In this document: in pieces, positions 8,572 to 17,996 of the stretch
Numbering within the stretch: position 1 is the stretch's first letter
Layout: each line of letters starts with the position of its first letter
NCBI GenBank assembly: GCA_003569705.1
Contig: BGOU01000001.1
Coordinates: 62,001-126,000 of the forward strand
DNA length: 64,000 nt
Origin: Nitrosarchaeum sp.
Lineage (GTDB): Archaea > Thermoproteota > Nitrososphaeria > Nitrososphaerales > Nitrosopumilaceae
Direction: 5' to 3'
The notes under the pieces: generated by a model
Seen by the model: only the letters and a program-made list of their open reading frames with translations
What the model was told of the DNA's origin: nothing
Database searches by the model: none
Translations under genes and position numbers: made by a program

Positions 8572-9321
8572 ATGGACAGAATTTCAAAATTACGGATACA
8601 TATTGCACCTGTAGGATATGAAATTGACAGAGTGGTACATCCTGCAAAGCAGGAAAAGGCGGATAGAGTTTGGCTGTTACTTCATGAAAACCAAAGTGAG
8701 GATAAGTCAAGCCCATTCATTACAAAAATTACAAATCAGCTAGAAAAATTAGGAATTGAAGTAAAACAAGAATATCATGACAGACGAGATTTATTTAAAA
8801 TTATTCGAGCAATAAAAAATATCCTAGAGCAAGAAAAAGGAAATGACATCTATGTAAATTTAGCATCAGGTAGTAAAATTCAGGCAATAGGTACTATGAT
8901 GGCATGCATGATGTTCAATGATGATGAAAATATTCATCCGTTTTATGTAGAGGCAAAAAACTATCGTGGAGTTGATGCAAAACAACCATTATCAACTGGA
9001 ATAAAAAAGATTCAAGATGTTCCACCATATTCAATAAAAATTCCTGATGAAAGATTAATTCAAGCATTAAAGATTATTAAGGAAAATAATGGCAAATTAA
9101 CTAAAAAAGAGATGGCACAAATTTCAGAAGAAAATAAAATAATTACAGTTAATGCAGAAGAGAAAAATCATTCCATGGCAAGATTTACAAGTCTTGATAA
9201 AAATATCATTCAACCATTAGAAGAACATTGGAAGTTCATTAAAGTTGATAAGATAGGGCGGAATAGATGGATAACGCTTACTCAAGAAGGTAAAAATGCA
9301 ATAGGTTTTTTAATAAAATGA
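8572..9321 (+). CDS. CARF-domain winged-helix transcription regulator (HFX_2341/Csa3-like)
   Basis: Residues 1-145 have the alpha/beta pattern of the HFX_2341-type CARF domain (DUF6293): RIHIAPVGYEIDRVVHP, a central KADRVWLLLHEN strand, and the nucleotide-loop motif IYVNLASGSKIQAIGTMMA. Residues 160-249 form a winged helix with the RWITLTQEGKNAIGFL ending. CARF domains bind cyclic oligoadenylates made during type III CRISPR responses, but no CRISPR array or cas gene is in this window. It is divergent from a small-membrane-protein operon and probably autoregulated through the palindrome at its start. Confidence is high for the fold and lower for the ligand. Confidence 0.82.
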   Translation: MDRISKLRIHIAPVGYEIDRVVHPAKQEKADRVWLLLHENQSEDKSSPFITKITNQLEKLGIEVKQEYHDRRDLFKIIRAIKNILEQEKGNDIYVNLASGSKIQAIGTMMACMMFNDDENIHPFYVEAKNYRGVDAKQPLSTGIKKIQDVPPYSIKIPDERLIQALKIIKENNGKLTKKEMAQISEENKIITVNAEEKNHSMARFTSLDKNIIQPLEEHWKFIKVDKIGRNRWITLTQEGKNAIGFLIK

Positions 9322-10389: not shown

Positions 10390-11505
10390 ATGAACCAAAG
10401 AAAACAAAAAGCAAAACAAATGATGGAATCATCAGGATATGCTTCACAGTTTGAGTCAGATAAATTCAGAGTCAGATCACAAACCAATCCAGAAAAATTC
10501 TACATCATAACAAGAACTGGCAATGGTCTAGTTTGTGAATGCCTAGACCACATCACAAGAAAGGCAGATTGCAAACACATCAAGATAGTATTGGAATTAA
10601 TCATGAAAAACAAGTGCTATCATAATAATACATTTAGAATAATGGAAAGAGCAAGTCTTGAACTCTGCAAGTTCTGTGATTCAGGTAGAATAACCAAAAA
10701 AGGTACAAGAAAGAACAAGAACGGTAATGTTCAGATTTTCAAGTGTTTAGACTGTAAAAAGAAATTTTCTGCTAATTTTGGTTTTGAGAAAAAACAGTTT
10801 GATTACACTACCATTACAGGTGCTTTGCAGATGTATTATTCTGGAATGAGTGTAAGAGATATTTCAAATCATTATGAGATGTTAGGTATTGAGGTATCAT
10901 TCAAGACTGTCTATAATTGGGTAGCAGATTATTCTAAACTTGTTAGTAAGTATCTAAATGAGATTGTTCCTAGAACTGGAAACTGGATTAGAGCAGATGA
11001 AGTTTGGATAAAGGTTGCAGGAGAACAAAAGTATCTATTTGCATCAATGGATGATGATACAAGATATTGGTTGGCATCAGATATGGCAGATACTAAATTT
11101 CAGCATAATGCAGATAATTTACTAGAACTTACAAAAAAGGCAATAGGCAAAAATCCAACTTATTTCATAACAGATGGATTACCAGCATATCAAAAAGCAT
11201 CAAAGAAAGTATTTGGTAAAAAGACCATTCACACTAGACATATTCACATTCAAAAAGATATGAACAACAACAAAATGGAACGCCTGAATGGTGAGATTAG
11301 AGATAGAGAGAAAGTATTCAGAGGATTAAAGAAAATGGATACTCCTATTCTTGATGGAATGAAAGTCTATTACAACTTCACAAAAAAACATGGTGCTTTG
11401 AAAGGAAAGACTCCATCAGAGTCAGCCTTGATAAAAGTAGATGGTAAGAACAGGTGGAAAACCATGATTCAGAACGCTAGTTTGTACAAGCAAAATTCCA
11501 TCTAA
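10390..11505 (+). CDS. DDE transposase with SWIM zinc finger, IS6/IS240-like
   Basis: The 371-aa protein has, in order: a SWIM zinc finger (VCECLDHITRKADCKHIK, about residues 46-66), a second zinc ribbon (CKFC and CLDC, about 94-120), a helix-turn-helix (about 135-175, SVRDISNHYEMLGIEVSFKTVYNW) and a DDE catalytic domain. The acidic residues are seen in IRADEVWI, FITDGLPAY and the NNKMERLNGEIRDREK motif, where the last E completes the triad. Most IS6 transposases are about 230 aa; the extra length here is the SWIM region. All motifs look intact, so it may be active. Confidence 0.93.
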   Translation: MNQRKQKAKQMMESSGYASQFESDKFRVRSQTNPEKFYIITRTGNGLVCECLDHITRKADCKHIKIVLELIMKNKCYHNNTFRIMERASLELCKFCDSGRITKKGTRKNKNGNVQIFKCLDCKKKFSANFGFEKKQFDYTTITGALQMYYSGMSVRDISNHYEMLGIEVSFKTVYNWVADYSKLVSKYLNEIVPRTGNWIRADEVWIKVAGEQKYLFASMDDDTRYWLASDMADTKFQHNADNLLELTKKAIGKNPTYFITDGLPAYQKASKKVFGKKTIHTRHIHIQKDMNNNKMERLNGEIRDREKVFRGLKKMDTPILDGMKVYYNFTKKHGALKGKTPSESALIKVDGKNRWKTMIQNASLYKQNSI

Positions 11506-11588: not shown

Positions 11589-12956
11589 GTGAATAGCAAG
11601 TTATCCATTCAGAACATATTTTTATTAATTCTTATTGGTCCGTCTATCGCATTTTCAATTATCGGATTAAACATTTTTACTCAATTACAAGATGAGGAGT
11701 CCCAAGACAAATTAGTGGAGAACACTAGAATAGTCATTGAAACCATAAATAATGTTCAGATAGATCTTTTAAACGCAGAGACTGGAGTCCGTGGTTTTAT
11801 CATAATTGGTAAACAATCTTTTTTGGAACCATATAACAATGGAATTAATTTAATTAATTCTAACATGGATAAATTACAAAAATTAACTTCTGACAATCAA
11901 GTACAACAGCAAAATATCTCCAAATTAAAAATACTTGTATTCGAACGCCTTGATATATTAAAAAAACTCATTCAAGAAAAGGAGTCCGATAATGTTGATT
12001 TTGCTCTTATCTTTGATGGTAAGCAGAAAATGGATGAAATTAGAGCACTACTTGCCGACATGTCTAATGAAGAAAATAATCTACTGTACAACAGATCATC
12101 TGCTTTGGATAATTCAACACAAACCATCAACAATCTCATTGCTGTGGGCTTTACAGTAATTATTATAATCAGTATATTGTCAATTTCTTTTTTGTATGTC
12201 TACATAAGAAAACGTACTAAAGTGGAATTTGAACTGAAAGTACAATCTGAATATCTGAAAAAAACAGATATTCAAAAATCTGAATTCGCAACTATGATAA
12301 CTCATGAGCTAAAAACTCCGCTAGTTCCAATTACCGTTTACTGTAAAATGCTAAAATCATCCATGATGGGAAATCTAAACAAAGAACAGATTGATGCAAT
12401 CAATGTCATTGAAAAAAATGCAAAGAGCCTTGATCATCTGATTAATGATATCCTGGATGCAAGAAAATTAGATTTAAAGAAATTAAAATTCAGTCCAGAG
12501 AATGTAAACATTGAAGAATTTTTTGACGAGATTTATTCTGCACATAATCCTGTGATAAATCAAAAAGGACACAAACTTGTAATTGATATTTCAGATAAAC
12601 ACATTACAATAAAAACTGACAAAATAAGATTGCGACAGGTCTTTGATAATTTAATTAGCAACGCGTTAAAGGTCATGCCAGAAAAAAATGGCATGATTGA
12701 GATAAATATGAAAAAAGAAAATGACAATATTATTTTTCATGTAAAAGATAATGGATTTGGAATTCCGTTGGATAAACAAGATGAAATCTTTAAAAAATTC
12801 TACCAAGTCGATACATCCGCAAGAAGAAAGATTACTGGAACTGGCCTTGGGCTTGCCATATCAAAGGGAATAACAGAGCAGATGGGAGGCAAAATATGGT
12901 TTGAAAGCGATGGAATCACTGGAACCACGTTTTTTATACAGTTACCCTCAGTGTAA
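11589..12956 (+). CDS. CHASE3-domain sensor histidine kinase
   Basis: GTG start. Order: membrane helix (about 10-31), extracytoplasmic CHASE3 domain (about 40-175, LNAETGVRGFIIIGK motif), second membrane helix (about 182-205), HisKA with phosphoacceptor H239 in MITHELKTPL, then HATPase with N box DNLISNALK (353-361), G1 DNGFGIP (387-393) and G2 GTGLGLA (417-423). All catalytic motifs are present. A response regulator and a HisKA-protease fusion follow on the same strand, so it is the likely phosphate donor of a three-gene relay. The stimulus is unknown. Confidence 0.93.
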   Translation: MNSKLSIQNIFLLILIGPSIAFSIIGLNIFTQLQDEESQDKLVENTRIVIETINNVQIDLLNAETGVRGFIIIGKQSFLEPYNNGINLINSNMDKLQKLTSDNQVQQQNISKLKILVFERLDILKKLIQEKESDNVDFALIFDGKQKMDEIRALLADMSNEENNLLYNRSSALDNSTQTINNLIAVGFTVIIIISILSISFLYVYIRKRTKVEFELKVQSEYLKKTDIQKSEFATMITHELKTPLVPITVYCKMLKSSMMGNLNKEQIDAINVIEKNAKSLDHLINDILDARKLDLKKLKFSPENVNIEEFFDEIYSAHNPVINQKGHKLVIDISDKHITIKTDKIRLRQVFDNLISNALKVMPEKNGMIEINMKKENDNIIFHVKDNGFGIPLDKQDEIFKKFYQVDTSARRKITGTGLGLAISKGITEQMGGKIWFESDGITGTTFFIQLPSV

Positions 12957-13008
12957 TTTCTAAAAATCATCACATTTATTTTATACCAATAAATACCTAC
13001 AAAAAAGT

Positions 13009-13371
13009 ATGAAAATCTTACTGATAGATGACAACGAAGACATATCCACTGCGTTTTCAAAATATTTCATTTATAGAGGCCATGAGTGTTCTGTATCAAA
13101 TGATGGGCAAAATGGTCTATCCATGATTGAAAATAACTCGTATGATGCAATTATTATGGATCTTACAATGCCCGACTTTTCAGGGCCAGACATTGTAGAG
13201 TCTCTTTACAATCGTAATCTGATGAATAACAAATTAATTGTTGCATTAACTGCATCATCAATTTCTGATGATGAAAAGAATGATCTTAAGAAGAGAGGCA
13301 TCCACTCCATACTAAAAAAACCAATTGATCCTGATGAATTACTAGACTATCTGAGCAAAATCAAAAGGTAA
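13009..13371 (+). CDS. Single-domain response regulator (CheY-like)
   Basis: A 120-aa receiver domain with acidic pocket D7/D8, phosphorylation site D51 in IIMDLTMP, switch T81 and Lys in LKKPIDP (103-104). There is no output domain, so it must act by protein contact or relay phosphate. It sits 52 bases after the kinase and 4 bases before the HisKA-protease gene, which places it between a full kinase and a protein with a spare phosphoacceptor domain. Confidence 0.93.
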   Translation: MKILLIDDNEDISTAFSKYFIYRGHECSVSNDGQNGLSMIENNSYDAIIMDLTMPDFSGPDIVESLYNRNLMNNKLIVALTASSISDDEKNDLKKRGIHSILKKPIDPDELLDYLSKIKR

Positions 13372-13375
13372 CTGC

Positions 13376-14779
13376 ATGGATGATCAGTATATAATTAGTG
13401 AACTTGAACAGTTGAGATTAATTAGTGAACTTGAACAGTTGAGATTAATTCAAAAAAAGACGATCGAATTACTATCTACAGATAAATCTGATTTATCATC
13501 CATGATTAACACGCTGGGTTCGGTAGATAATGCGACAAAAAAAATATCTGAATTACTTGCTAAAAAAAATAGCATTCCAAAAGATACACTAGAGAAACTA
13601 CACCATGAGCTTCGCACTCCGATGACTCCAATACTTGGATATACTGAAATGCTACTTGCACACAAGTTTGGTCCATTAAATGATAAACAGATGGAAAAAG
13701 TGCAAATAATACATGAAAATACAAAACGCTTACTTGATACGATTAATTCTTTAGATGATATTTTATCACCTGTACAGAATCAGGATGATAAAAAAGATGA
13801 TAAAAAATTTGAGATAAACGAGCTAAAGCAAGAAAAAAAGTTAATAAAAAAACTCAATGATTCTTGGGTGGAGCAATTAAATAATTCACAAAAAGAAAAA
13901 GATGAATTTTTAAAAGCAGTAAAGAATTCAGCACATGAAAAACTAGAGCAAGACCAAGAAAAGATGATTTTAGGCAAATCAATCAAAATAGAACAAGAAA
14001 AAAATCTCCGCTTGTCCAAAAAACACATTATTACCATAGTAGGTGCTACAATAGTAATAGCGGTAATCACCATAGGATACTCCTTACTGGTAGTTGATCT
14101 TGTCGGTCAACAGTATCAAGTGAAAAATCTAGGCTCGATAAAATCAAACTATATTGTACAGAATCTCAAAGGAGATACCATCGACACGTGGCTTTCATGG
14201 AGGCTAGTAGACGGTTATGTCATTAATGTTAATTTAATTGATGGTCAGAAATATCCAGACAAAGCAGACATTGTAAAAACAGTTATTCTTTCAGAGGAAT
14301 CAATAGAGATAGACAACTCACTACTGCACAAGGGCCCCAAAGGTACGACATCTACGTACTATGTTGGTTGGACAGGCGCACTAGAGCACACAAACCCTAC
14401 CTCACTTTACATCCCTCACAAATTCAACATAATAGAGTCATCAAAAGGCGAGGGCGACATTACAATAAAACTAACTCCTCAAAGTAACGGCGATGGTTAT
14501 TCAGGGTATACAAAATCAATTGCAGATGATTCTAATAATCAGATATTAAAATCGGAAATTACCATATATGATATTGACAAGTTATCAAAAGCGCAATTTG
14601 AAACCATACTGAGACACGAGTTTGGCCACGCACTAGGTCTTGCTCACTCTACTGCTCCTGAGGATCTGATGCATCCTACAATAGAGACAGACTATCCATA
14701 CATCTCTAGTTGTGATGTTGATGCCATGGTATCACTATATGATGGCGGCAAGAAAAGCAAAGTGACGTGTAAGATTTAA
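13376..14779 (+). CDS. HisKA domain fused through a membrane helix to a matrixin-like zinc protease
   Basis: Residues 6-24 hold a 9-aa tandem duplication (ISELEQLRL twice). A HisKA dimerisation domain follows, with H77 in LHHELRTPMTPILGY, but no HATPase domain. Then come a charged coil (about 145-215), a single membrane helix (about 217-240) and an extracytoplasmic domain. That domain carries the metzincin motif HEFGHALGLAHS (H414, E415, H418, G421, H424) and a likely Met-turn in EDLMHP. It is therefore a transmembrane protein with a cytoplasmic phosphoacceptor and an outside protease. The gene follows the response regulator by 4 bases. The architecture is seen; phosphorelay control of proteolysis is inferred. 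Confidence 0.85.
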   Translation: MDDQYIISELEQLRLISELEQLRLIQKKTIELLSTDKSDLSSMINTLGSVDNATKKISELLAKKNSIPKDTLEKLHHELRTPMTPILGYTEMLLAHKFGPLNDKQMEKVQIIHENTKRLLDTINSLDDILSPVQNQDDKKDDKKFEINELKQEKKLIKKLNDSWVEQLNNSQKEKDEFLKAVKNSAHEKLEQDQEKMILGKSIKIEQEKNLRLSKKHIITIVGATIVIAVITIGYSLLVVDLVGQQYQVKNLGSIKSNYIVQNLKGDTIDTWLSWRLVDGYVINVNLIDGQKYPDKADIVKTVILSEESIEIDNSLLHKGPKGTTSTYYVGWTGALEHTNPTSLYIPHKFNIIESSKGEGDITIKLTPQSNGDGYSGYTKSIADDSNNQILKSEITIYDIDKLSKAQFETILRHEFGHALGLAHSTAPEDLMHPTIETDYPYISSCDVDAMVSLYDGGKKSKVTCKI

Positions 14780-17342: not shown

Positions 17343-17798
17343 TTATTGTGTCACCGAGATGTGATTGCAGATTATATCTACTAATTTACCATCCACAGCA
17401 TGACTACCTACTTGCACACTTCCCGATGGACAAGAAGCTTGACTACTTCCAATATCATCTAGATGTACCATAGCAGGTGTTCCATCAAATAAAATATGCC
17501 ATGTTCCAGAAGGACCTGGTGGACCTTGTAGACCATTAGTACCATTAATTCCTCTTGGACCTGGTGGACCTTGGGAACCGGATTTTAATTTGAGAGCATC
17601 AATTTGTGTTTGTAATCCTGCTATTGCATCCCATAATGCTTGGAATGGATGTTTGTATTTTTTTTCATCTTTATCTTTCTTGTCTTTACCTTTCTTATCT
17701 TTGTCATCATCAGCAAAAACATTTCCAGATGCAAGAGGACTTGCAAATAGAATAGTTGCTATTGCTAAAAACAAAAACAGATTTGTTTTACTTGTCAT
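17343..17798 (-). CDS. Secreted collagen-like protein
   Basis: The ATG at 17798 (MTSKTNLFLFLAIATILFASP) gives a clean signal peptide; an upstream in-frame ATG at 17834 would only add 12 unlikely residues. After cleavage near VFADD comes a Lys/Asp-rich segment (DDKDKKGKDKKDKD), a short helix, then Gly-X-Y collagen repeats (GPPGPRGINGTNGLQGPPG, about residues 75-98). A small C-terminal domain holds two Cys. It sits in a segment of about 830 bp flanked by an 11-bp direct repeat, between the tRNA-Ser copy and its original neighbour. It is probably surface-exposed. Confidence 0.75.
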   Translation of the reverse strand: MTSKTNLFLFLAIATILFASPLASGNVFADDDKDKKGKDKKDKDEKKYKHPFQALWDAIAGLQTQIDALKLKSGSQGPPGPRGINGTNGLQGPPGPSGTWHILFDGTPAMVHLDDIGSSQASCPSGSVQVGSHAVDGKLVDIICNHISVTQ

Positions 17799-17996
17799 TG
17801 AAAAAATGAAAATATCATAACAGTTAAGGCTCACGGAGCTAAGCTCAGATAGAATATTGATAGAAAAATAAATTATTCAATATAATATGATGATAAACCA
17901 GAGCAACTACAAATGAATGAATAGCAATAGTTTTATAAAAAAAATAATTGAGCATGATATTATTTAGAAAAGTAAGATGTTTTTCTGTAAATAAAT

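Follow-up and report, generated by a model that had tools for sequence, protein, structure and literature searches.

Three adjacent genes in the window (the whole 64,000-nucleotide stretch analysed here, from a 1.46 Mb archaeal genome of the family Nitrosopumilaceae) encode a sensor histidine kinase, a stand-alone receiver and a protein that carries a HisKA domain, a transmembrane (TM) helix and a matrixin protease predicted to lie outside the cell. These genes very probably form one functional unit, and the best explanation overall, which we modestly favour, is an inside-to-outside signalling unit of three genes. The unit is a form of receiver-protease coupling that recurs in ammonia-oxidising archaea and extends across the family, and the HisKA fusion is one widespread variant of it. 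The features of the locus are as follows.

11589-12956, forward strand: sensor histidine kinase, 455 aa, GTG start; TM, CHASE3 (residues 41-170), TM, HisKA (residues 229-295, acceptor His239) and HATPase_c (residues 344-453), from Pfam
13009-13371, forward strand: stand-alone receiver (REC), 120 aa, from Pfam and alignment
13376-14779, forward strand: HisKA-coil-TM-matrixin fusion, 467 aa, from Pfam, homologues and AlphaFold2
13394-13420 and 13421-13447, forward strand: exact 27-base tandem duplication, a direct repeat in the N-terminal coil
13592-13759, forward strand: HisKA domain of the fusion, motif HELRTP, with the His77 codon at 13604-13606, from Pfam
13799-14095, forward strand: continuous helix, as predicted, which starts on the HisKA side and takes in the coil and the TM segment (AlphaFold2 helix 142-243)
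about 14036-14095, forward strand: TM helix, the one hydrophobic helix, residues ~221-240
14144-14773, forward strand: outside matrixin (M10) domain lacking a propeptide, from Pfam, invariant columns and Foldseek matches to MMPs

The three genes are co-directional, with gaps of 52 bases between kinase and receiver and 4 bases between receiver and fusion, in agreement with the preliminary description, which placed a CHASE3 kinase and a lone receiver within 60 bases ahead of the third gene. Pfam identified CHASE3 (1.6e-31), HisKA (1.2e-14) and HATPase_c (4.5e-28) in the kinase, and Response_reg (1.1e-18) in the receiver, which has no Pfam output domain of its own. In alignments, the kinase is complete, with the H box, the N box (NLISNA) and the G1 (DNGFGI) and G2 (GTGLGL) boxes intact, and the receiver keeps Asp7/Asp8, the acceptor Asp51, Thr81 and Lys104. 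With the catalytic His and boxes on one side and the Asp/Thr/Lys set on the other, the pair is a two-component system (HK + REC), and the catalytic residues of kinases and receivers are preserved in the cassettes checked, other loci included. An IS240-type DDE transposase gene (10390-11505, forward strand) ends 83 bases upstream of the kinase start, and thus the promoter region may be altered in the window genome. Near this insertion element, the protein encoded at 8572-9321 (forward strand) matches the HFX_2341 N-terminal, DUF6293 and Csa3/CARF families and is a possible candidate for a ligand-binding regulator.

In the fusion protein, Pfam located HisKA at residues 73-128 (4.1e-12; 46.4 bits against a cut-off of 26.9) and Matrixin at residues 349-455 (4.7e-11; 43.3 bits against a cut-off of 24), and gave no match to HATPase. 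His77 and Glu78 are invariant in the alignment of 16 fusions. The protease part carries the zinc motif HEFGHALGLAHS (codons 14615-14647), a Met-turn at Met432 and the Cys446/Cys465 pair; the HExxHxxGxxH pattern, the Met-turn and the profile score above cut-off identify it as a matrixin (M10). Its catalytic zinc site is invariant in 35/35 aligned homologues. A vertebrate-type MMP propeptide with a cysteine switch is absent, the only two Cys of the protein both being C-terminal. Since exactly two Cys occur in 105/105 matrixin parts, as the invariant pair 446/465, they are consistent with an outside disulphide. Lys and Arg are richer in the 20 residues before the TM helix than in the 20 after it in 89/89 single-TM homologues (means 5.6 vs 1.2), and this positive-inside bias predicts a topology with the N-terminus inside and the C-terminus outside. 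The AlphaFold2 model of the monomer (35 sequences, mean pLDDT 78.9, pTM 0.46) has a HisKA hairpin (residues 69-94 and 103-129), a single helix without a break (142-243), of which the TM segment is part, and then a matrixin fold, which Foldseek matches to MMP-9 (E 8.5e-06). The earlier reading of the third gene as a HisKA domain with its His but no ATPase, a coil, one membrane helix and an outside metzincin is borne out by these profile scores, charges and predicted structure. HisKA precedes the TM helix, the reverse of the order in membrane kinases, and any signal would therefore exit via helix 2. The HisKA domain is presumably dimeric, as in the HisKA family. The 9-aa tandem duplication reported for the HisKA part is also real and lies in the N-terminal coil: ISELEQLRL is present twice (residues 7-15 and 16-24) in the window genome only, and once in each of the aligned relatives.

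About 150 homologues of the protease part came from searches of 101 relatives and, after that, of 250 genomes of the family; from 100 retrieved neighbourhoods, 105 distinct TM-matrixins were classified, all from Nitrosopumilaceae. HisKA is fused in 17 of the 105, with 43-72% identity to the window protein among the fusions. The window architecture is found in 16 other loci of several genera and is thus far from chance. In 16 of the 17 fusions, a receiver lies on the same strand within 350 bases (15 upstream), and a kinase is nearby in 14, two of the other three being at contig edges. The fusion in L092 is without the usual upstream receiver and kinase; a REC-TackOD1 gene (L092:6100-7083) lies directly 3' of it and is the one downstream receiver among the 16. 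Two cultured relatives also carry cassettes: Candidatus Nitrosotenuis chungbukensis MY2 has the fused form, and Candidatus Nitrosotalea devanaterra has the order receiver, protease, CHASE3 kinase. Since HisKA without an ATPase resembles a truncated kinase, the fusion might be taken for a chance product in which the remains of a disrupted kinase gene became attached to a protease. We give this explanation almost no credence: several genera have kept the fusion, His77 and Glu78 do not vary among 16 fusions, its HisKA belongs to a separate lineage that also has free copies, and the recurrence and the invariant His77 rule the explanation out.

A same-strand receiver adjoins the TM-matrixin in 62 of the 105 homologues, so that the neighbourhood seen in the window is widely kept. 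The findings that would have told against the preliminary description thus did not turn up: HisKA passes its profile cut-off, and the homologues do not consistently lack both HisKA and the neighbours. Among non-fused TM-matrixins the count is 46 of 88. The genomes concerned hold only 11-33 receivers, for which the expected chance adjacency is 1-4% (an estimate for ~2,000 genes per genome); the binomial p is <1e-34 even at 10%, a merely indicative value, as the sampling took the top-scoring homologues of the window protein, and the rows are related. Many TM-matrixins have a receiver and a kinase yet no HisKA, some with only ~35 residues inside, and therefore either the coupling does not require HisKA or such loci operate in another way. 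HisKA fusion as an essential feature was rejected, since receiver coupling extends beyond the fusions.

The protease-adjacent receivers are of several types: those of ~120 aa and 139 aa lie upstream of the protease, and those of 156 aa, 131-140 aa and 216 aa lie downstream, the last with a weak NitrOD5 match. Their separation in the receiver tree suggests that the coupling arose more than once. The receivers of fused cassettes cluster together in that tree (18 rows, 15 flanking a fusion). Receivers of 216-222 aa lie directly 3' of the matrixin in L051, L114, L116, L121, L132 and L143, and the NitrOD5 match is below cut-off in the two scanned (L051 and L143); the matrixins beside them are possible targets of this orphan output domain. 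Mere co-regulation of neighbours that do not act on each other, with a constitutive protease and HisKA as a borrowed dimerisation handle, would suit the 31 of 105 homologues that lack receiver, kinase and HisKA, and an enzyme without a propeptide could be active as made. However, at least five receiver types adjoin the proteases in different positions, and fused, split and protease-free forms of one HisKA lineage accompany kinase and receiver, which leaves co-regulation alone quite improbable.

The sensors of the kinases vary between equivalent cassettes (CHASE3, dCache or PAS), while receiver and protease are constant. Other inputs among the homologues are dCache-TM-TM-matrixin (L123, L124), multi-TM (L135, L136) and coil-only forms. 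L123:4023-5804 and L124:3897-5675 combine a dCache sensor, more TM helices and an outside matrixin in a single protein and are possibly one-piece sensor-proteases, judging from their domains. L135:2262-4139 and L136:4089-5786 encode six- to eight-helix proteins that end in the same matrixin domain and adjoin a second TM-matrixin on the opposite strand. In L039 (5255-6639), the HisKA-matrixin gene is broken into two frames, and the protease has probably been lost there.

Since the flanking genes mostly differ between genomes, the kinase-receiver-protease trio is the conserved unit. When the ORFs that flank the fused loci were clustered, no conserved fourth gene, regulator or substrate emerged beside the cassette. 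Surface proteins of the fn3/cupredoxin type occur near some loci, directly downstream in L037 only, and are too little conserved to be such a gene. The one in L037 (3826-5985, reverse strand), a secreted fn3 and cupredoxin protein ~10 bases 3' of the matrixin gene, is a candidate substrate. In the window, 17343-17834 (reverse strand), 2.6 kb from this collagenase-type protease, encodes a small protein that looks secreted and has a few collagen-like Gly-X-Y repeats; the Pfam Collagen match is below cut-off. Considered as a substrate, it was set aside: among the loci scanned, the protein is found in the window alone. Outside Nitrosopumilaceae, a class-level profile search gave weak matches in one other family, all strong matches being confined to this one, and a contig scan recovered the same group, except for one record titled Proteobacteria that is probably misbinned.

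HisKA without ATPase also occurs as a stand-alone gene of 71-164 aa, in cassettes L032, L037, L096, L101, L094, L097, L118 and L040. A scan of nine genomes for HisKA found ten short HisKA-only frames, and seven of these belong to protease cassettes. Trios of kinase, receiver and HisKA with no protease in view are present at L242:1875-3837, where the contig ends just downstream, and at L244:5230-7769; by gene content, these may be free three-gene phosphorelays. In a tree of 28 ATPase-less HisKA domains (17 fused and 11 free, including that of L039 with the broken protease gene) and 76 kinase copies, one branch parts all 28 from all 76, with moderate support (SH-aLRT 83) from a short domain. A separate lineage with fused and free members is what one would expect of a domain dedicated to phosphotransfer and joined to its output in some cases only.

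The acidic residue beside the HisKA His serves catalysis in kinases. This H+1 residue is acidic in 24 of the 28 ATPase-less domains vs 76/76 kinases (Fisher p 0.004), and the acceptor His is kept in 26 of the 28. The His thus outlasts the kinase-type acidic residue, as expected for an acceptor. The two copies that have lost the His are the following.

L040:5606-6871: His-less HisKA, fused (DELRNP)
L118:3014-3508: His-less HisKA, free (DKLRNP)

Both have His-to-Asp and Thr-to-Asn changes, which are possibly independent. These losses would fit a receiver that merely docks on HisKA or the coil and controls the protease through receiver-phosphate binding, with no phosphate passing to His. The common receiver-protease pairs without HisKA (46 of the 88 non-fused) point the same way, since they imply that a receiver can be coupled to the protease with no acceptor His involved. 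However, the His is otherwise retained throughout the lineage, and the L040 cassette also holds a separate free HisKA with its His; we regard docking without transfer as rather unlikely.

In another alternative, the protease domain is a sensor and HisKA draws phosphate from the receiver, as a phosphatase or a sink, so that outside occupancy or cleavage would alter the HisKA dimer and the receiver phosphate in an outside-to-inside direction. HExxT, the motif of HisKA phosphatases, is mostly retained, and Thr, Ser or Asn occupies H+4, the phosphatase position, in 28/28 ATPase-less domains, which makes a phosphatase role conceivable. The window receiver has no output domain, and phosphatase activity was suggested for ATPase-less HisKA proteins by Galperin et al. 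2018 (PMC5847659). On the other hand, 4 of 28 domains show relaxation at the acidic position, whereas 26 keep the His, the zinc site is invariant in the 35 aligned homologues beyond the needs of binding, and flanking-ORF clustering of the fused loci shows no conserved regulator gene beside the cassette. We consider this reversed flow unlikely.

Transfer to the fusion is the reading we prefer, and the phosphate probably reaches His77, to judge from the conserved residues. Identity of the fused HisKA to the HisKA of its own kinase is 0.298, and to those of others 0.302; the ideas that the fused domain was copied from the HisKA of its partner kinase, or that it tracks that domain, were therefore rejected. 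Covariation and specificity matching gave a null result in a test of low power (16 cassettes, ~60 columns). An ATPase-less His domain with a conserved acceptor His is linked to REC, as in a phosphorelay. A second, downstream receiver is absent from the window cassette by ORFs and Pfam, and since the output is apparently the protease, we call the system phosphorelay-like and do not count it among the classical four-step relays. PF00512 HisKA was the sole histidine-domain family matched, with no match to the Spo0B profile. The relay proposed in the preliminary description thus survives the tests applied in its gene order, domain calls and proposed direction of flow, whereas the covariation signal is null and the HisKA fusion turns out to be one variant only.

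We infer the following route. The CHASE3 kinase would sense some signal, autophosphorylate and then phosphorylate the lone receiver, which would dock on the dimeric ATPase-less HisKA of the protease protein and most likely hand its phosphate from Asp51 to His77. The fused HisKA would work like a Spo0B-type phosphotransfer domain, and a change in its dimer would travel down the continuous helix, across the single TM segment, to the paired outside matrixins, so that surface proteolysis is switched or positioned. For the whole chain, from kinase through receiver and HisKA to control of the outside protease, we see an even chance. By this route, the gene contents suggest, the cell may govern protein cutting on its own surface by an internal phosphate signal. 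If true, archaea that are among the most abundant would possess a signalling route that is post-translational and directed outward, in which HisKA serves as an effector domain and drives a signal out across the membrane. Evenly poised, too, is our broader proposal of a phosphorelay class, in which the terminal acceptor is a reversed-polarity HisKA dimer driving an extracellular protease, together with a wider receiver-coupled family of membrane matrixins that would give many orphan stand-alone receivers of ammonia-oxidising archaea a function.

Stand-alone receivers make up ~75% of thaumarchaeal response regulators, most of them outside conserved neighbourhoods (Galperin et al. 2018, PMC5847659), and their functions could therefore not be inferred in that census. 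For part of them, the present loci supply a neighbourhood that is conserved and, possibly, an output in physical form, an outside-facing membrane protease. The words 'protease', 'peptidase' and 'matrixin' are absent from the main text of the census (PMC5847659), and we found no matrixin or protease output joined to archaeal two-component genes in the open-access literature, in line with the earlier statement that no described system with this gene order is known. Matrixin genes are mentioned in sponge thaumarchaea in the context of host protein degradation. Like the catalytic domains of matrixins and MMPs (MMP-9, MMP-7, karilysin), the outside domain has the HExxHxxGxxH zinc motif, the Met-turn and the fold; unlike MMPs, it has no propeptide or cysteine switch and is held by an N-terminal TM anchor with a cytoplasmic signalling domain.

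The census of Galperin et al. 2018 (PMC5847659) describes archaeal proteins, chiefly from Archaeoglobi and Methanomicrobia, that likewise have HisKA with the conserved His but no HATPase and were predicted to be acceptors or phosphatases. However, they have N-terminal PAS/GAF and C-terminal HisKA domains, whereas here HisKA is N-terminal and followed by the TM helix and the protease. In LapD-LapG (PMC3032545), a cytoplasmic signal likewise crosses the membrane outward to control a surface protease; there, the c-di-GMP-binding LapD retains a periplasmic protease that is a protein of its own, whereas here kinase, receiver and HisKA would act on a covalently joined metzincin. Pfam found no c-di-GMP-binding EAL/GGDEF domains in the three window proteins, and the likeness is one of logic alone. 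Spo0B passes its phosphate to Spo0A, whereas no second receiver is seen here, and the window HisKA, matched by PF00512, is linked by a TM helix to an enzyme outside the membrane within one protein. The combination of a lone receiver with an ATPase-less, dimeric HisKA-like phosphotransfer protein nevertheless resembles the Spo0F-Spo0B step of sporulation, and the Spo0B-TM of Paenibacillus (PMC12826061) is likewise membrane-bound.
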